From Candidatus Melainabacteria bacterium (GTDB lineage: Bacteria > Cyanobacteriota > Vampirovibrionia > 2-02-FULL-35-15): DNA of 34,382 nt. Shown here piece after piece: positions 16,696 through 29,855 of this stretch; positions within the stretch are counted from its first letter, which is position 1, and each line of letters begins with the position of its first letter. The notes below the pieces were generated by a model. It was not told where the DNA came from, made no database searches, and worked only from the letters and a program-made list of their open reading frames with translations. The position numbers and the translations under genes were made by a program. The stretch covers positions 1 to 34,382 of the forward strand of contig JACQBQ010000033.1 in assembly GCA_016201905.1 (NCBI GenBank), read 5' to 3'.

Positions 16696-17286
16696 CTAAT
16701 TGTATTTTAACTTAAACGGTGGTTCGCCAAGTGGGATTTTTACTTCCCATTTAAATTTATTTACCAGTGTTCCCATTGCATGATACAAGGCAAGTAAGCC
16801 AATAATGACATGATCAACACCTGCATAGTATTCAAGCGGAAAATTTAATTTAATTAGAACATCTATTGTAAACACTATAGTAATAAATACATGCAGCACC
16901 ATTAGAGTAAGTGACTTATGTCCAGTAAGATAAATCATAATTGCTGAGAATAAAGCATAAATAGCTACAAGCGGAAGAAAAAGAATATTATCCCAGTGAA
17001 ATCCTTCAACAAGCCCAAGAATTTTAACAGTAAAAACTGTAGTCCAATAAAAACCATACATAGTAAGAGCTGTCCCACCAAGCTGGTCGTGATATTTGAC
17101 ATCAATCATTCCAGCAACTATCTGAACAATGCCTCCAAACATAAGACATATAATTGATATTGCAAGGTCATCGTTGTGGGGAATTATACCCATTTGAACA
17201 AGCCCGAGGGTTAGGGCACCAACAGCCAGTCCAAATAATCCTATTGACAATACGTCAACTTTTAGCAAGCCATCTTTCTTATCCAT
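16696..17286 (-). CDS. GPR1/FUN34/YaaH-type acetate transporter, last gene of the hyf-like operon
   Basis: 196 aa, six predicted hydrophobic segments. Family match: SIGLFGLAVGALTLGLVQMG, then FGGIVQIVAGMIDV and the GGTALTMYGFYWTTV segment, as in SatP/YaaH acetate-succinate proton symporters. The N-terminal signature NPAPLGL is not intact (here VDVLSIGLFG), so the substrate is uncertain. A strong AGGAGG (17296-17301) lies 9 nt before the ATG and overlaps the hyfI stop. The gap to hyfI is 13 nt, so it is co-transcribed with the hydrogenase-like genes. Acetate import or export tied to the complex's proton gradient is an inference. Confidence 0.8.
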   Translation of the reverse strand: MDKKDGLLKVDVLSIGLFGLAVGALTLGLVQMGIIPHNDDLAISIICLMFGGIVQIVAGMIDVKYHDQLGGTALTMYGFYWTTVFTVKILGLVEGFHWDNILFLPLVAIYALFSAIMIYLTGHKSLTLMVLHVFITIVFTIDVLIKLNFPLEYYAGVDHVIIGLLALYHAMGTLVNKFKWEVKIPLGEPPFKLKYN

Positions 17287-17299
17287 TTCCTTTGACCTC

Positions 17300-17839
17300 C
17301 TATTTTTTTACCAAAATAATTTTGCACAATAAAAGCCCTTTTATAATTTCTTCAGGTGTAGGTGGATCCCCTGGAATATAAACATCAACCGGAAGAAACT
17401 GATCTACTCTTCCCAGGCAAGCATAAGTATTTTTATAAATAGAACCATTGCATGCACCATCACCAAGTGCAACTACAATTTTTGGATATGGCATTGCAGC
17501 ATATGTTCTTTCCATTGCAACTTTTAAGTGCCTGGTAACGGGTCCACTTACAGTTAAAACATCAGCATGGCGAGGTGAGGCCGTAAAATCAATTCCAAAG
17601 CGGGTTATATCATAAATGGGATTAGAAAGAGCTAGAAGTTCTGCTTCTTCTGCATTGGAAGAACCAAGATCAAGATGACGAACAAGCAGCGATCTGCTCA
17701 AGGCAGACCTTTCTTTAAAGTTCAGATTTTGAATTCTTGAAAGATCAATTTTGTAAGTTTCAAAATCACTTGCATTAATAACAGGTGCCTTCTCAGTTAC
17801 TACACCTTTTTTCACCCACATTTTTAAAATGTTTAACAA
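17300..17839 (-). CDS. hyfI: HyfI/NuoB-like small subunit lacking all cluster cysteines
   Basis: 179 aa, group 4 hydrogenase small-subunit/NuoB fold: DLGSSNAEEAE (57-67), NPIYDITRFGIDFTASPRHADVL (73-95), SGPVT (98-102), ALGDGACNGSIY (124-135) and PVDVYIPGDPPTPEE (150-164). In cluster-bearing relatives the four [4Fe-4S] ligands are in GSCNGCE, GDCA and PGCPP. Here these are Ser61, Glu64, Gly128 and Asp158, so the proximal cluster cannot be bound in the usual way; remaining Cys are only 130, 141 and 172. Start: TTG at 17839 with AGGAGG (17852-17857) 12 nt upstream, or ATG at 17821 without one. Located between hyfG and the YaaH gene. Confidence 0.88.
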   Translation of the reverse strand: MLNILKMWVKKGVVTEKAPVINASDFETYKIDLSRIQNLNFKERSALSRSLLVRHLDLGSSNAEEAELLALSNPIYDITRFGIDFTASPRHADVLTVSGPVTRHLKVAMERTYAAMPYPKIVVALGDGACNGSIYKNTYACLGRVDQFLPVDVYIPGDPPTPEEIIKGLLLCKIILVKK

Positions 17840-17857
17840 ATTCTCTTATGTCCTCCT

Positions 17858-19492
17858 TTATCTATCCACACATGCATAACAAAGATTAAAGCTTTTATTT
17901 ACAAGCGGTCCATCAGGAACAATATTTTTTAAATTATCTTCACCCATTGTTGCCTGAGCCATCCCTCGCCAATTCATATAAGAAGCACTTCTTACATGAA
18001 AACGAAAAATTTTGCTTTCAGTATCAAGCATAATTGAATGCACAAGTTCTCCTTTAGCTGACTCTACTATTCCTAATCTGTGTTCATAGGCTGGAAATTG
18101 TTTTGGTACCACACTTACAATATCTCCACTTGGAAGATCTTCAACTAGTTTTTTAATTAGCTTTAGAGAATTATAAACTTCATCTATACGAACCTGTGTT
18201 CTTGTTAGTGCATCTCCATCTTCGTAAACTGGCACCTTAAATGCATAGTCTTTATAAGCTAGATATGGAAAATCACGTCTCACATCTTTATCAATTCCTG
18301 AACCCCGTGCACTAGGTCCAACTAACCCTAAAGAGTCTGCCATCTTTAAAGAAATAAAGCCTGTAGATTCCAGCCTGTCAAGAAGACTATCTGTATTTAA
18401 AATAAGTTTTTCCCATTCTTGAAATTGGTTCTTAAACTTTTCTAGCTCTGTAAATAAAATTTGAAACAAATCATCTGAAATATTTTTTTTCAGTCCACCA
18501 ATTGTATTTAGCCCACGTAAAAAACGATGCCCTGTAAGATTATGAATTAATCTCATTATCATTTCTCTGAGTCTACTAGCATGAGATGCGCCAAAACCAA
18601 AGCCCCCGCTAGAAGTAATAGCCATAAGATCAGCCATATGACTACTTATACGTTCCAGTTCAAGACATATAGTTCTAATAAAGATAGATCTTTTCGGTAC
18701 CTCAATATTTCCTAAAGTTTCTATTGCCAAACAAAAAGCATTTGAATGTGCATAAGCACACATTCCACATATATGCTCTGCCAAATTAAGCACATCTTCA
18801 ATACTTTTACCTTCAGCCATCTTTTCAATGCCTTTGTGAGTGTAAAACAGCTGAGCATCAAATTTATAAATCTCTTCACCAATTACACAAAAACGAAGAT
18901 GCCCTGGTTCAATAATTCCAGCATGAATAGGTCCCACAGCTATTTGATACATACCATCTCCATGTGGCTGACTAAATTCATGAGAAACTTCTGAAATCGG
19001 GATTTGCTTATCTAGCAAAAAATCCCTGCGCATAGGAAAGTGTTTTCCTCGTGGCCAATCTCTATGCAGTACTAAAGGATCAAGCTCTATACCTTGTGGA
19101 ATAATGCCAAAAAGATCATGGATTTCTCTTTCATACCAGTCTGCAGAAGGAAGCCTTTGACTAAGTGCAGGATAGGTAGGGTTTTCTTTGCCTAGAGCAA
19201 TCTCAAATGTTACAAGAACATTTGTATCGCTTGGGAGAAAAAATGAGAATACGGTGTAAAGCTTAAAGTTTCCATTTAAATGACGTTCATCTGTCACTGT
19301 CATTGTAACTAAAGATGATTTTAATTCTGTATGCCCAGAAATATACTCTAATATAATAGTCAAATAATCTTTTTCAATCACAAGGTGGAGATGATTTGGT
19401 GAGATAATTTTTAACTCTAAGAGATGACCTTTGAAAGCACCCTTTAAGGATTCAAAAAATAACTCTACATCATTTTTAATTAAGGTTTTCAT
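17858..19492 (-). CDS. hyfG: HyfG/HycE-like large subunit (NuoC-NuoD fusion)
   Basis: 544 aa. N-terminal 170 residues are a NuoC/30-kDa domain with the signature WYEREIHDLFGI (119-130). The rest is a [NiFe]-hydrogenase large subunit/NuoD. L1 motif is ICGMCAYAHS: Cys242, Cys245 and His249 are kept, though the usual Arg before ICG is His240. The L2 motif at the extreme C-terminus is NLCYACVDR: Cys538 and Cys541 kept, but the usual Asp-Pro before them is Asn-Leu. So all four Ni/Fe ligands are present. The protein ends right after this motif, leaving no C-terminal peptide for a maturation protease. The start overlaps the hyfF stop by 4 bp. Confidence 0.92.
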   Translation of the reverse strand: MKTLIKNDVELFFESLKGAFKGHLLELKIISPNHLHLVIEKDYLTIILEYISGHTELKSSLVTMTVTDERHLNGNFKLYTVFSFFLPSDTNVLVTFEIALGKENPTYPALSQRLPSADWYEREIHDLFGIIPQGIELDPLVLHRDWPRGKHFPMRRDFLLDKQIPISEVSHEFSQPHGDGMYQIAVGPIHAGIIEPGHLRFCVIGEEIYKFDAQLFYTHKGIEKMAEGKSIEDVLNLAEHICGMCAYAHSNAFCLAIETLGNIEVPKRSIFIRTICLELERISSHMADLMAITSSGGFGFGASHASRLREMIMRLIHNLTGHRFLRGLNTIGGLKKNISDDLFQILFTELEKFKNQFQEWEKLILNTDSLLDRLESTGFISLKMADSLGLVGPSARGSGIDKDVRRDFPYLAYKDYAFKVPVYEDGDALTRTQVRIDEVYNSLKLIKKLVEDLPSGDIVSVVPKQFPAYEHRLGIVESAKGELVHSIMLDTESKIFRFHVRSASYMNWRGMAQATMGEDNLKNIVPDGPLVNKSFNLCYACVDR

Positions 19493-20985
19493 AAAGCATG
19501 ACCTAGATTAACTATTTTTACTGATTCATTAAGAATCTGTAAGAGCGGTGGTGGAATCCAACAACCAAGCAAACAAACCATTGATAGAGGAATTAACATT
19601 GCAATTAAACTTGATCTGTTGATTTCACCTTTTGATATTTCATGCATATTACTACCTGAACTAGGTATTGGTCCTATAGCCATTTGAACCAAATGAAATG
19701 TTAGTCCACCAAAAACAATTGTCAAAAATAAAACAAAAAGTATACTTGCAATCCAATGATTCCCTTGTATTCCACCAGTAAGGATGTAAAACTCACTTGT
19801 AAAAATAGAAAACGGAGGAGAACCAGCAAGGGCAAGTCCACCAATTAAAAGAACAATTCCACTTATAGGCAACACTTGCATTGCTCCTTTAATGTGTTCC
19901 ATATCTTTGCTATGAAATTTCAGTGCAAGATTGCCCGAAGTAAAAAACATGAGTGATTTAACCATTGCATGATTTATCATATGAAATAAAGCACCAAAAA
20001 TTGCAGTTGTAGTTCCAAAACCCAAACCTGTAGCTATAATGCCAATATGTTCTAAGCTATGATATGCAAGCAATCGTTTTACCTGCCTCTGTACCAAGAT
20101 AAAAGGAACTGATATACCAATAGAGAGAAGCCCAAAAATTAAAATCATTTTATTTGTAAATTCTGCACCTACTGAAAGATTAGTTAAAATTGCAAATCTA
20201 ATAATGCTATAAATACCACACTTTATAAGTACCCCTGAAAGTAATGCACTTACTGGTGTTGGTGCCTCGCTATGTGCATCAGGAAGCCATGTATGCATCG
20301 GTGCAAGTCCAGCCTTTGTTCCAAAGCCAATTAAAATAAAAACAAATGCTACTTTCATAAGATGTGGATCTAGCTTATGAGCAATTGTAATTAAATAGTC
20401 CCAGTTTAATCCCTGTTCTCTAATGCCACCTGCATGGGTCACTGCATAATAACTTAAAACAATTCCAATCATTGCAAAGGCTATACCAACAGTGCAAAGA
20501 ATAATATATTTCCATGCTGCTTCAACAGGTGTTTCTTTATTGTAATAGCCTACTAAAAACGCAGAGACCAGAGTTGTTAATTCTATTGAAATCCATAGTA
20601 CACCCAAGCTATTTGCAGTAACGACCATAAGCATCGTTAGAATAAAAATGTTTAATAAAAAATAATATCGTTTAAGTTTCCAAGGATTTTGAATTTTTTC
20701 TTCTACATCATTATTAACCATATAACCAATTGAATAGAGGGAAGCAAGCAAGCTCAAAATGGTAACTAAAAAAATCATAAGTCCAGAAAGTGCATCAAGA
20801 TACACAGTATTTCTAAATGCATGTATTGAACCTTGTTGAATAATATCTTTGACAATTAGCAGACCAAGACCAAACAAAATAACCATTCCAATGGATTGGA
20901 TCCGCCCAATCCATTGTGATGATTTAGGGAGTAAACACAAGAGTCCTGTTATAAATGGAATTAAAAATAATAAGCTTACTTCCAT
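19489..20985 (-). CDS. hyfF: HyfF-like proton-pumping subunit (NuoN/M family)
   Basis: 498 aa, multi-helix antiporter-like subunit of group 4 hydrogenase complexes. Conserved ion-channel residues: Glu135 in WISIELTT, Lys224 in GFGTKAGLAPMHTWLPDAH and Lys255 in SGVLIK, plus KRLLAYHSLEHIGI and FHMINHAMVKSLMFF. GSPPFSIFTSEFYIL near the C-terminus is typical of HyfF/NuoN. These support an intact proton or sodium channel. One base separates it from hyfE and a 4-bp overlap joins it to hyfG. Confidence 0.92.
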   Translation of the reverse strand: MEVSLLFLIPFITGLLCLLPKSSQWIGRIQSIGMVILFGLGLLIVKDIIQQGSIHAFRNTVYLDALSGLMIFLVTILSLLASLYSIGYMVNNDVEEKIQNPWKLKRYYFLLNIFILTMLMVVTANSLGVLWISIELTTLVSAFLVGYYNKETPVEAAWKYIILCTVGIAFAMIGIVLSYYAVTHAGGIREQGLNWDYLITIAHKLDPHLMKVAFVFILIGFGTKAGLAPMHTWLPDAHSEAPTPVSALLSGVLIKCGIYSIIRFAILTNLSVGAEFTNKMILIFGLLSIGISVPFILVQRQVKRLLAYHSLEHIGIIATGLGFGTTTAIFGALFHMINHAMVKSLMFFTSGNLALKFHSKDMEHIKGAMQVLPISGIVLLIGGLALAGSPPFSIFTSEFYILTGGIQGNHWIASILFVLFLTIVFGGLTFHLVQMAIGPIPSSGSNMHEISKGEINRSSLIAMLIPLSMVCLLGCWIPPPLLQILNESVKIVNLGHAL

Positions 20986-20986
20986 T

Positions 20987-21676
20987 CTATCCTTTCAGCT
21001 TGCGCAGCTCTTCTACATTTATAGTGTCAAAAGATTGCTTAATTCGATAAACCCAAATACCCATAACAAGAGCACCTATAAGAAGATCAAGAAAGATTCC
21101 CATCTCAACTACTAAAGGCATTTCAAAAATTGTGTCAACAGTAAGAGCCAGGATGCCATTTTCCATTACATACAATCCCATTATCTGGGCAAATGCTTTT
21201 TTTCTGGTCATCATAATAAAAAGACCAATTAAAATCATTGATATAGAAGTACTTAATAAATTCGTAGATAAAACATGAACTTCTTTCCCAATTCCAATAT
21301 TAGTAGTTACCTCAAATACCAAAGCTATTAAGCTGCAAATAAGAAGCATTGAAGTCGGGAGACTGATATAAGTTTCAACCTCCCTGCGAATTTGAATCTT
21401 CTGTAAAACAAACATCAATATCCATGGGATTAAAAAACATTTTCCAAATAAAGTTATCCCACTTACCAGAAGTGCATTAGAGCTATGATTCATAACACCA
21501 GCAAAAAGCGTGATTAAAACCAGTCCAAAAGACTGAAAAACAAAAAGTTTTACCATTGTCTCAAGACGACGACAACCTGTCATTAAAATGCTTATAACAA
21601 GAACAATCCCAATAATATAACTGGACAGTTGTTGTATAGCCTGCACAGGTAAAAAATGATTTATAAAAGAAATCAA
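20987..21676 (-). CDS. hyfE: HyfE-like membrane subunit
   Basis: 229 aa, helical membrane protein of the HyfE family, an extended NuoK-like subunit of formate-hydrogenlyase-type complexes. Seen: repeated hydrophobic segments, KLFVFQSFGLVLITL, GITLFGKCFLIPWIL, and YVMENGILALTVDTIFEMPLVVEMGIFLDLLIGALVMG with the buried acidic residues characteristic of this family. Overlaps hyfC by 4 bp and is 1 bp from hyfF, so it is tightly coupled. Confidence 0.88.
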   Translation of the reverse strand: MISFINHFLPVQAIQQLSSYIIGIVLVISILMTGCRRLETMVKLFVFQSFGLVLITLFAGVMNHSSNALLVSGITLFGKCFLIPWILMFVLQKIQIRREVETYISLPTSMLLICSLIALVFEVTTNIGIGKEVHVLSTNLLSTSISMILIGLFIMMTRKKAFAQIMGLYVMENGILALTVDTIFEMPLVVEMGIFLDLLIGALVMGIWVYRIKQSFDTINVEELRKLKG

Positions 21677-22647
21677 AGACTAAGCCCTCCTGTACTTTTA
21701 TGAATACTTATAACAAGAGCAATAATAGAAATTACAAATGAAGCAACAAGAATATCTTTCACGCGAAAAAGTCTGACTTTAGCAATCATTGTTTCAATCA
21801 AAACAACAACTATGCAAACAACAAATATCTTAATTAAATAAAATACAAATGCCGGTAATATATTTGACCAATGCAAAGACAACGAATATCCCCAAGGGAA
21901 AAAGAGATTGGCAAGTAAAGAAATCACCAAAAGCTGCTTTATCCAACTTGCCCAAAACATAAGCCCAAGTAATTTCCCCGAATATTCAAGAAGCATACCT
22001 TCATGAATCATCGTCAACTCATAATGCGTTTCAGGATTATCAAATGGGACTCTCCCCATCTCTGCAATTCCTGCTATTAACAAAGAAATTGCAGCAAGAA
22101 CATAACCAGGGGTAAACAAATTAATCCCCTGACTTGAAAGCCAACTTACTATAACAGGCAGGTTTGTACTTCCTGCCATCAAAGTCAGAACAAACAAAGA
22201 AAGAAGCATGACCGGTTCAATAAGCATGGAAAGCATCATCTCGCGGCTGCTTGCCATACCACAAAACCCACTGCCAGGCTCCATAGCTGCGCTACACATA
22301 AAAAATCTTCCTAGTCCAAAAAGATAAATTAAAAGAATAATCCCTCCGAGAAAATACAGCTGAGTAATAGTAACAAAAGTGGGTACAATAAGACTTGCTA
22401 CAAGAACCGATGTGAAAACTATAAACGGTGTTACAAGAAAAACCCATGAGGTTTGATTCGAGACTACTGTTTCTTTGTGAAAATATTTTAGTAGATCGTA
22501 ATAACCCTGCATAAGCGGAGGTCCTTGACGGCTTTGTAAAATCGCTTTTAATTTTTTCATAAGTGTATTAATAAAAGGTGATAATGCCAGAACCACCAGT
22601 AACTGAAGAATGATTAAACAGATAGTTTGCAATGTAATGATTTTCAT
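21673..22647 (-). CDS. hyfC: HyfC/HycD-like subunit (NuoH family)
   Basis: 324 aa, NuoH-like membrane anchor that links the peripheral dimer to the ion-pumping arm. Motifs: QSRQGPPLMQGYYDLLK (38-54), SSREMMLSMLIEPV (133-146), AEMGRVPFDNPETHYELTMIHEG (195-217) with the acidic residues of the coupling loop, and LLEYSGK. Overlaps hyfB and hyfE by 4 bp on each side. Confidence 0.93.
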   Translation of the reverse strand: MKIITLQTICLIILQLLVVLALSPFINTLMKKLKAILQSRQGPPLMQGYYDLLKYFHKETVVSNQTSWVFLVTPFIVFTSVLVASLIVPTFVTITQLYFLGGIILLIYLFGLGRFFMCSAAMEPGSGFCGMASSREMMLSMLIEPVMLLSLFVLTLMAGSTNLPVIVSWLSSQGINLFTPGYVLAAISLLIAGIAEMGRVPFDNPETHYELTMIHEGMLLEYSGKLLGLMFWASWIKQLLVISLLANLFFPWGYSLSLHWSNILPAFVFYLIKIFVVCIVVVLIETMIAKVRLFRVKDILVASFVISIIALVISIHKSTGGLSL

Positions 22648-24602
22648 AGTCTAAGCCACACTAAACATAAAATTAAAGTAATAAAGATATAAAAGAGGTA
22701 AACCTGTAATATGCCTGACTGCATTGGCCTTACCTTATGAGAAAAACCTATGAGTCCATTAACAAGAGGAAGATAAATATATTTGTGATAAAAACTTTCA
22801 GGTGTGTGCATCTCTGAAAAAACTATTTTTAATGGCTGACTATAACCTGACGGTGTGTATTCATACTCTGGCTTTGGTGTAACACCACAACTCCATGTCT
22901 CTTCTTTTCTAAAAGACATACTTGTATTAAATTTAAAGAAGAAATAAACTAAAAGCAAAAGTAAAGTCATAAGTAAAAAGACCAGAGCTGGTGAAAGATA
23001 TGCAAATCCATCAGGGCCAAAGTTTACAAACAGTTTATTGACATTAAACAAATTTGATTTTATTTTTGCAGAAACAATGCTTTCACTTACATTTTCAAGT
23101 AGTGTCAGACCAAAAAAGGGTATAACTCCAAGACAAAGGCATAGAAATGCTAGTATTCTCATACCTAAGCGCATTGAGTATGAAACATTATGAGCATGCA
23201 AAGCAGTATGAGATCTGGGCATTGCCAGAAAAATCCCGGAAAAAGCTTTTACAAAAGTTGCAGCACAAATTGCTCCGGTAAATCCAAGTAATGCTGCACA
23301 GATAGGCGAAAAAATTTTCATTGCTTGTGAATGTATATGAAAAGATGAAAGCAGAGTCTGGAAGATAAGCCACTCGCTTATAAAACCATTGAATGGTGGA
23401 AATGCTGAAATTGCCAAGGCTCCAATTAAAAAGAAAAAAGAAGTCTGTGGCATAAGCTTAATCAGCCCACCCATTTTTTCCATGTTTCTTGTGTGAGTAA
23501 CAGAAATAACTGAACCAGCACACATAAACAAGAGACCCTTAAACAATGAATGATTTATAGTGTGAAGTAAGCCAGCAATAATAGAAATACCTGCAAGCTC
23601 TTTTTGTCCAAGACTAAAAAACACCATGCCAATTCCTATAGGAAGTAAAATTATTCCCATGTTTTCTATACTGCTAAAAGCCAGCATTCGTTTAATATCA
23701 ACTTCACCTGAAGCATAAATCATTCCAAGTATTGCAGTAAGTATTGAAATGCCAGCTAATATAAGTCCCCACCAGTATGGAAATGGAGACAGAAAATCAA
23801 AAACAAATCGTAAAATTCCATAAACCGCTGTTTTAATCATGACCCCTGACATAAGTGCAGAGATATGGCTGGGTGCAGCAGGATGTGCTTCAGGAAGCCA
23901 TATATGAAGCGGAATTAAGCCTGCCTTTGTTCCAAAGCCAATTAAGACAAAAATAAACAATATAAGCTTTAGTGCACCTGGCAACTGGTGGCCTATATTA
24001 TGAAAAGAGGCAAATGAAAAACTTCCAGTATATTTCGCTAGAATTAAAAAAATAAATAAAATAAAAGCAGAGCCAATATGTGTCATTAGAAGATAAATAA
24101 AGCCGGCATTTTTTGATTCTGCTTTGTTTGTATCAAAAATAACAAGAGCAAAAGAAATCAATGTCATACTCTCCCAGAGGAAAAGGAATAAAAAACCATT
24201 TGCTGCACACACTACAAGCAGCATAGAAAGCACAAATAAATGATACAAAGCACAAAGCACCCCGACATTTTTTTCAATGTATTCTGCCTGAAGATATCCC
24301 ACAGAATAAATCAAAACAGGGATACTCAGCATAGAAATCAACATTAAAAAAAATGCAGCTAGAGGATCTATAAGCAGTTCAAGTCTTCCAAATGGAAGCC
24401 CAAATGGAATATTAAAAATAAACTTACTCCTGTGTATTAGTATTAAAGCAGAGCTTAATAAACAAAGAGCAGATGCAATGATTCCAAAAATCGTTGAAGA
24501 AAAAATAGAAAGTTTTTTAGAAAAATTGTTTAATAAAAAAGATGAGATCGTAGCAAGAATAAAAAATAAAAATGAAAATTGAAGTAATTGGGTCTCATTC
24601 AT
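22644..24602 (-). CDS. hyfB: HyfB-like proton-pumping subunit (NuoL/M family)
   Basis: 652 aa, first gene of the operon. Antiporter-like protein with Glu144 in FLWESMTLIS, Lys226 in GFGTKAGLIPLHIWLPEAHPAAPSHISAL and Lys257 in SGVMIK, KRMLAFSSIENMGII, and AFPPFNGFISEWLIF. The long hydrophilic C-terminal part with SCGVTPKPEYEYTPSGYSQPLKIVF and the EMHTP segment matches HyfB/HycC. ATG at 24602 lacks a clear Shine-Dalgarno. Followed by hyfC with a 4-bp overlap. No hyfA, hyfD or hyfH (ferredoxin-like) gene accompanies it. Confidence 0.92.
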   Translation of the reverse strand: MNETQLLQFSFLFFILATISSFLLNNFSKKLSIFSSTIFGIIASALCLLSSALILIHRSKFIFNIPFGLPFGRLELLIDPLAAFFLMLISMLSIPVLIYSVGYLQAEYIEKNVGVLCALYHLFVLSMLLVVCAANGFLFLFLWESMTLISFALVIFDTNKAESKNAGFIYLLMTHIGSAFILFIFLILAKYTGSFSFASFHNIGHQLPGALKLILFIFVLIGFGTKAGLIPLHIWLPEAHPAAPSHISALMSGVMIKTAVYGILRFVFDFLSPFPYWWGLILAGISILTAILGMIYASGEVDIKRMLAFSSIENMGIILLPIGIGMVFFSLGQKELAGISIIAGLLHTINHSLFKGLLFMCAGSVISVTHTRNMEKMGGLIKLMPQTSFFFLIGALAISAFPPFNGFISEWLIFQTLLSSFHIHSQAMKIFSPICAALLGFTGAICAATFVKAFSGIFLAMPRSHTALHAHNVSYSMRLGMRILAFLCLCLGVIPFFGLTLLENVSESIVSAKIKSNLFNVNKLFVNFGPDGFAYLSPALVFLLMTLLLLLVYFFFKFNTSMSFRKEETWSCGVTPKPEYEYTPSGYSQPLKIVFSEMHTPESFYHKYIYLPLVNGLIGFSHKVRPMQSGILQVYLFYIFITLILCLVWLRL

Positions 24603-29153: not shown

Positions 29154-29855
29154 GTGAAGCAACTTATTTATATATTTAGCGTCTTGGTGATTTTATTATT
29201 ATGGTCAGCTTGTAGCTCTGCTTTTGCCGTGGAAAATGACCTTGGACTCTGGACACCAGTTTACATTAAACTTCCAATAAATGACAAAATCAAAACAAGT
29301 CTAGAAATAAACCCCCGTATCCAAAAAAACATTACTCATATAAACCAGCTACTTGTACGTCCTTCCATTGGATATCAATTAACAAAAAATCTCTCAGTCT
29401 GGCAAGGTTATGGCTGGGTTACATTTTACATCCCAAGATTTGTACGGGAAGAAAGACTGTGGCAACAACTATTACATGAGAAACAATTTCCAAAGTTTAC
29501 TTTAATAAATAGGTTCAGGCTAGAAGAAAGATTTATCCAGGATGTAAGCGGGGTTCCACTAAGAATAAGGTATCTGCTTAAAGGATTATACCCACTGGGA
29601 AAATCAAAAAAATGGGCTCTTGTAACTGCTGATGAGCTTTTTGTTAATCCTGATTCCCACTTTAAAGGACCTCAATCTGGCATTGATCAAAATCGTTTTT
29701 TTATAGGCTTGAATCGAAAAATAAGTGAAAACGTAAGTCTTGAGGGTGGTTACCAAATGCAATATATTAACTCAGCCTCCCCACTTCAAGACAAGCTTAA
29801 CCATATAATTCTCGTAAACATGTACTTTAATCTTCCACAGTTAATTAACAATTGA
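29154..29855 (+). CDS. DUF2490 outer-membrane beta-barrel protein
   Basis: 233 aa. Sec signal peptide, cleavage near SSAFA (residue 25). The body shows alternating amphipathic strands typical of a small beta-barrel, with DUF2490-like features: DLGLWTPVYIKLPI, SLEINPRIQ, LVRPSIGYQLTKNLSVWQGYGWV, LINRFRLEERF, RIRYLLKGLYPL, FIGLNRKISENVSLEGGYQMQY. The start codon is GTG at 29154; the ATG five bases upstream is out of frame and stops at once. No Shine-Dalgarno. It lies divergent from czcB with a 123-bp shared upstream region. Function of the family is unknown; outer-membrane location is inferred. Confidence 0.8.
   Translation: MKQLIYIFSVLVILLLWSACSSAFAVENDLGLWTPVYIKLPINDKIKTSLEINPRIQKNITHINQLLVRPSIGYQLTKNLSVWQGYGWVTFYIPRFVREERLWQQLLHEKQFPKFTLINRFRLEERFIQDVSGVPLRIRYLLKGLYPLGKSKKWALVTADELFVNPDSHFKGPQSGIDQNRFFIGLNRKISENVSLEGGYQMQYINSASPLQDKLNHIILVNMYFNLPQLINN

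Follow-up and report, generated by a model that had tools for sequence, protein, structure and literature searches.

A hydrogenase-like operon of a Candidatus Melainabacteria bacterium whose small subunit lacks the ligands of its iron-sulfur cluster

The window analyzed here is a stretch of 34,382 nucleotides of a Candidatus Melainabacteria bacterium (assembly GCA_016201905.1, contig JACQBQ010000033.1, positions 1 to 34,382), and it carries an operon for a membrane complex resembling the group 4 [NiFe]-hydrogenases. Seven intact open reading frames run on the minus strand from position 24602 to 16696 and encode, in this order, HyfB, HyfC, HyfE, HyfF, HyfG, HyfI and a homologue of the SatP/AceTr transporters, as assigned by Pfam and NCBIfam matches. 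The intergenic gaps in gene order are -4, -4, +1, -4, +18 and +13 bp, and because of this tight spacing the operon is read as one transcription unit. An initial annotation of this DNA had overlooked the seventh gene. It had found no HyfA, HyfD or HyfH ferredoxin-like gene and no visible route for electrons, which holds for the whole operon. Nor does the operon contain the NADH module and the NuoI ferredoxin-like subunit of respiratory complex I, the MrpA-G set of Mrp antiporters (the best models for its genes are Hyf models), or a DabA subunit with a zinc site like that of beta-carbonic anhydrases.

In the small subunit HyfI, a conserved Ser/Cys-Glu-Gly-Asp pattern stands in place of the cluster ligands. 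Ser61, Glu64, Gly128 and Asp158 align with the ligand Cys of HyfI, HycG and NuoB of Escherichia coli in MAFFT, and an independent hidden Markov model alignment to MbhJ (PDB 6cfw) gives the same four columns, in agreement with the initial annotation. The four-Cys set for the proximal [4Fe-4S] cluster of group 4 [NiFe]-hydrogenases is thus missing from the window HyfI. A search of 146 related genomes found close homologues in 12 besides that of the window, giving 13 carriers. The 12 relatives belong to Melainabacteria, Caenarcanales and Vampirovibrionales, and their proteins are 55-77% identical to those of the window and encoded in open frames. Positions 64, 128 and 158 hold Cys in none of the 13 HyfI proteins of this Vampirovibrionia clade, while position 61 is Cys in 10 (GSCNAEE) and Ser or Asn in three. 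The claim that all four ligands are lost therefore stands for the window and two relatives, but only three of the four are gone in the remaining 10. About 60 HyfI residues are invariant within the clade, among them Cys130 and Cys141, and the AlphaFold single-chain model (predicted local distance difference test score, pLDDT, 89.8) keeps the NuoB/MbhJ fold, with MbhJ (6cfw_J) as its best match. The only other NuoB-family protein in the genome of the window is a true NuoB on contig C34, so that no substitute small subunit is available.

The large subunit HyfG retains Cys242/245 and Cys538/541, the two CxxC motifs of group 4 [NiFe]-hydrogenases, as had been reported, and it stops at CVDR right past the second motif, the C-terminal extension being absent. 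Its single-chain AlphaFold model (pLDDT 89.7) keeps the HycE fold and is most similar to E. coli HycE (7z0s_E, TM-score 0.90). The initial annotation had seen a possible nickel-iron active site in these Cys. The search for the maturation proteins, which covered HypC and HypD, found HypD in none of the 13 carrier genomes, with 42 related genomes elsewhere in the class as positive control, and HypC in none of the 13, with three positive controls. A functional NiFe site was rejected because both proteins are absent from all carriers, and the HyfG Cys would therefore be kept for another use or hold another metal. In the membrane arm, the Glu and Lys of the channels are present in both pumping subunits, as expected from the initial annotation: HyfB conserves E144, K226, H347, H351 and E410, and HyfF conserves E135, K224, H335, H339 and E398. 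The position in transmembrane helix 12 is Glu in both (E410 and E398), like in E. coli Hyf, and HyfC has the conserved acids E144, E196, D203, E210, E216 and E285.

The cluster-less type extends beyond the Vampirovibrionia. In a search of named genomes, 56 loci of this type were found, the majority in the candidate phyla radiation (CPR)/Patescibacteria (Uhrbacteria, Moranbacteria, Kaiserbacteria and Peregrinibacteria) and others in Acidobacteria, one Micavibrio and one Micrarchaeaceae; cluster-less HyfI occurs in more than 40 genomes of CPR, Acidobacteria and other groups. The motifs GS-x-NAEE, GDGAC and G[D/N]PP are common to these loci with small variations. Outside the Vampirovibrionia, the four Cys of the large subunit are gone as well, and nearly all CPR-type relatives keep only Cys130 among Cys61, Cys130 and Cys141 of HyfI. 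No other NuoB-family protein was present in six of the 10 CPR-type genomes checked. The CPR Ehr (energy-converting hydrogenase-related) proteins, which lack metal-binding Cys and are monophyletic according to the main text of Jaffe et al. (2020; PMC7304191), are probably the same group as these CPR-type relatives, whereas the window HyfG keeps the large-subunit Cys that are missing there. That main text treats the large subunit, and no description of small-subunit cluster loss or of ATP synthase and carbonic anhydrase (CA) neighbors was found in it. Two further observations concern gene content: the archaeal Micrarchaeaceae contig carries a divergent copy with the order B-C-F-G-I, whose branch in the trees is very long (Table 1), and in one CPR-type subgroup (L072-L079, L083-L086 and L091) HyfC may be fused to HyfE, since its open reading frames have about 530 amino acids (aa) and a separate HyfE is missing.

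Classic Ehr complexes show the reverse state. The absence of their NiFe motifs is described in the literature and has been reported for Ehr of gut and groundwater Melainabacteria (PMC3787301). Other families of the same class, together with plasmids of Cupriavidus, Azospirillum, Rhizobium and Variovorax, have Ehr-type operons in which the four cluster Cys are kept in HyfI and the NiFe Cys are missing from HyfG, whereas the window clade has the opposite pattern and branches as their sister. The window shares with Ehr the six-subunit set B-C-E-F-G-I, the absence of the C-terminal extension and of an operon ferredoxin subunit, and the large-subunit motifs GPIHAGIIEPGH and NKSFNL; it departs from Ehr by the four Cys of HyfG. 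Trees of HyfG and HyfI were computed with the ligand columns removed and rooted on E. coli Hyf/Hyc, and on this rooting, on which the placement depends, the Vampirovibrionia clade is sister to all sampled Ehr in the HyfG tree (support 99/93) and in that of concatenated HyfB+C+F (Shimodaira-Hasegawa-like approximate likelihood ratio test 95). The initial annotation had left a choice between an intermediate and a distinct branch, and these trees speak for the latter. The short HyfI recovers the same clade with weaker deep branches and an inner branching that differs from HyfG and HyfB+C+F. On the HyfG tree, one change is required for the NiFe Cys and two for the cluster loss. Joining Vampirovibrionia with the CPR-type, as one shared origin of the cluster loss would demand, is rejected on the HyfG tree (approximately unbiased test, p-AU 0.015) but not on the HyfI tree (p-AU 0.061). 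Since the near-identical replacement motifs lie in clades that HyfG sets apart, they may be convergent or may have been shared through exchange of HyfI, both being possible.

The seventh gene belongs to the Gpr1/Fun34/YaaH acetate-transporter group, with matches to PF01184 and NF038013 above the cut-off. SatP genes occur in nine of the 146 related genomes and adjoin the complex in all nine, for which the chance is about 1e-19 if gene placement is uniform. The signature of the AceTr/SatP family is NPAPLGL. At this position, the window has DVLSIGL and the eight relatives have DVLSIGL or DVLSVGL, so that the homologue differs from known SatP/AceTr transporters both in its altered signature and in its place at the end of a complex I-like operon. 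A comparable arrangement is seen in E. coli, where focB, which codes for a small-acid channel, lies near the end of hyf.

In relatives, other genes related to weak acids and ions flank the operon. Beta-type CA (Pro_CA) genes flank the Ehr operons of four genomes (G011, G090, G096 and G104), and Pro_CA adjoins SatP in one clade member (G062). Among the places listed, 15 of 45 genomes have a CA-like gene no more than 10 kb from the sister Ehr operon, against 0.2 expected under the same uniform placement; profile comparison ties this family to beta-CA with 95% probability. Five CPR-type loci have a CsoSCA-type CA family (Pfam match) directly upstream of HyfI, a sixth has a weaker homologue, and about 20 CPR-type loci have an F1Fo ATP synthase operon directly upstream of the complex. 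Two genomes (G010 and G027) carry SulP genes on the flanks of the complex. Separately, open frames of about 830-900 aa contain the CA-like domain and may be fusions of SulP with CA (G026, G031, G048, G061 and other f2 genomes). Beside CPR-type operons, there is also an unnamed family of 209-262 aa with CxDxDQ and HxPCG motifs and no Pfam match; the motifs resemble beta-CA, but profile comparison gave 3.4% probability and the family was not counted as CA. As to the other surroundings, an ArsR-type regulator is conserved before HyfB in most relatives, divergent from the operon in one (L048), and missing from the window, which has an RND (resistance-nodulation-division) efflux gene in its place. 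A DUF2490 protein gene is recurrent near the operon: it immediately follows SatP in two relatives, and in the window and a third relative it lies no more than about 5 kb away.

Table 1. Positions of the operon genes, of the altered and retained metal-site motifs, and of other features (window coordinates unless a locus is named; aa, amino acids).
Feature	Position	Strand	Remarks
HyfB, antiporter-like membrane subunit, 652 aa	22644..24602	-	NF005086 635 bits; PF00361
HyfC, NuoH-like membrane subunit, 324 aa	21673..22647	-	PF00146 2.1e-47
HyfE membrane subunit, 229 aa, TTG start	20987..21676	-	NF008556 2.9e-24
HyfF, antiporter-like membrane subunit, 498 aa	19489..20985	-	NF005044 510 bits
HyfG large subunit, NuoCD-like, 544 aa	17858..19492	-	PF00346, PF00329, PF00374
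HyfG first CxxC of former NiFe site, Cys242-Gly-Met-Cys245	18758..18769	-	invariant in 12/12 clade members; SGD in CPR relatives
HyfG second CxxC, Cys538-Tyr-Ala-Cys541	17870..17881	-	invariant in 12/12 clade members; SYSG in Ehr and CPR relatives
HyfI small subunit, NuoB-like, 179 aa	17300..17839	-	PF01058 6.5e-24
HyfI Ser61-Asn-Ala-Glu64, in place of CxxC ligands	17648..17659	-	
HyfI Gly128, in place of third ligand Cys	17456..17458	-	invariant motif GDGAC
HyfI Asp158, in place of fourth ligand Cys	17366..17368	-	GDPP, sometimes GNPP
SatP/AceTr-family small-carboxylate transporter homologue, last operon gene	16696..17286	-	PF01184 1.1e-13; NF038013 58.4 bits (cut-off 50)
DUF2490 genes	window 29154-29855; L034 10964-11671; L035 5288-6013; L044 4108-4857		
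ArsR-type regulator genes near operon	L034 2647-3084; L036 1103-1528; L038 7286-7675; L039 16255-16686; L048 3157-3498		
CxDxDQ/HxPCG family	directly upstream of HyfI in L087, L088, L095, L097, L100, L108, L094 and L082; L089 13137-13793		
Divergent Micrarchaeaceae copy	L111 3236-10435		B-C-F-G-I

Judged from sequence, the complex is very probably redox-inactive. The explanation that we tentatively favor, short of calling it probable, is that the product of the operon belongs to the complex I/group 4 hydrogenase superfamily but is redox-inactive, and that it couples ion flow to the handling of a weak acid. This coupling is deduced from neighbors and conservation, and it is the SatP, CA-type and ATP synthase genes that suggest a link between weak acids and the proton motive force (PMF). 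Under this proposal, the complex would catalyze neither H2 nor electron chemistry; the HyfB/C/E/F arm would conduct or pump H+ (or Na+), with a mechanical link to an event without redox chemistry where HyfG meets HyfI, namely that a small weak acid is bound, gated or converted there. In the lineage of the window, this acid may be acetate or a similar carboxylate that SatP supplies, and in the sister lineages CO2/HCO3-. An ion channel or transporter module had already been suggested by the initial annotation; a transporter-type function is a plausible candidate, to which the SatP gene adds weight. DAB2 (DabA/DabB), which performs PMF-driven vectorial hydration of CO2 (PMC13144422), is the nearest working precedent for such coupling. 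Both systems have an antiporter-like PF00361 subunit that is linked to CA-type chemistry and to no electron transfer, but the window operon has no DabA and a full HyfB-I set rather than a single DabB. On a CO2 role of group 4-like complexes, a literature search found only the remark that hyf lies beside a beta-CA in Acidithiobacillus caldus (PMC3826726).

Several points weigh against weak-acid coupling. SatP is missing from four of the 13 carrier genomes, and the altered signature makes the substrate of the homologue uncertain. Evidence for the CO2 link is confined to relatives, because both Pro_CA and the CA-like protein are missing from the window's own genome, and neighboring genes are in any case an association and not a mechanism. 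The strict retention of the HyfG Cys in the clade implies a use for which the proposal does not account.

The main rival, a real possibility that we rate somewhat lower, is an Mrp-like cation/H+ antiporter or a regulated proton leak, in which H+ would be exchanged for Na+ or K+ through HyfB/C/E/F, with HyfG/HyfI serving only as a structural plug. The SatP and CA genes would then be co-regulated for pH homeostasis and have no mechanistic coupling to the complex. The channel residues kept in HyfB and HyfF, the ATP synthase and CA neighbors, which fit pH/PMF homeostasis, and the ArsR-type regulators beside many such operons are all consistent with it, but the invariant residues of HyfI and the four invariant Cys of HyfG exceed the needs of a plug, and the operon genes match Hyf rather than MrpA-G models.

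It is unlikely that the complex is still a redox enzyme, with a different or non-Cys-ligated cluster or metal in HyfI and with the four HyfG Cys binding a metal other than NiFe. Candidate ligands would be Cys61 (in relatives), Cys130, Cys141, Asp127 and Asp158, and the invariance of Cys130 and Cys141, the frequency of Cys61 and the four HyfG Cys within the Vampirovibrionia clade argue for them. Against this, nearly all CPR-type relatives keep just Cys130 and have no Cys at the NiFe positions of HyfG, an electron-donor gene is missing from the operons, residue 61 of the window HyfI is Ser, and HypC and HypD are absent. A functional [NiFe]-hydrogenase is very improbable. The window shares the fold and both intact CxxC motifs with group 4 [NiFe]-hydrogenases (E. 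coli Hyf/Hyc; MbhJ/L), but it differs from them in lacking the proximal cluster ligands, HyfA/HyfD/HyfH in the operon and HypC/HypD in the genome; a second small subunit, for which the initial annotation advised a scan, does not exist except for NuoB. A sequencing error or a decaying pseudo-operon, in whose favor no point was found, has a negligible chance and is refuted by 13 genomes with the same replacements in open frames, the 12 relatives repeating the pattern (Cys61 aside) where the initial annotation had thought that intact Cys might expose such an error.

Weak-acid coupling can be extended to a wider and more doubtful proposal, namely that there is a broad class of complex I-fold machines in Vampirovibrionia, CPR and scattered other phyla that have lost every electron-transfer cofactor. 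In this class, the old cluster pocket would be a conserved acidic non-redox site coupling the chemistry or transport of CO2/bicarbonate or acetate to the PMF, and the Vampirovibrionia branch would be half-stripped, with another metal held by the HyfG Cys. On this proposal, the complex and the ATP synthase would be the main PMF-linked machines of some CPR bacteria.

For annotation, a scan for the large-subunit CxxC motifs alone would misannotate the complex of the window as a hydrogenase. Machines of the complex I family are usually viewed as redox pumps; if the proposed coupling is true, non-redox chemistry can power the pump module or be powered by it. The organisms concerned, CPR and non-photosynthetic relatives of Cyanobacteria, are those whose bioenergetics is poorly understood, and the finding turns the function of Ehr complexes into a testable question.

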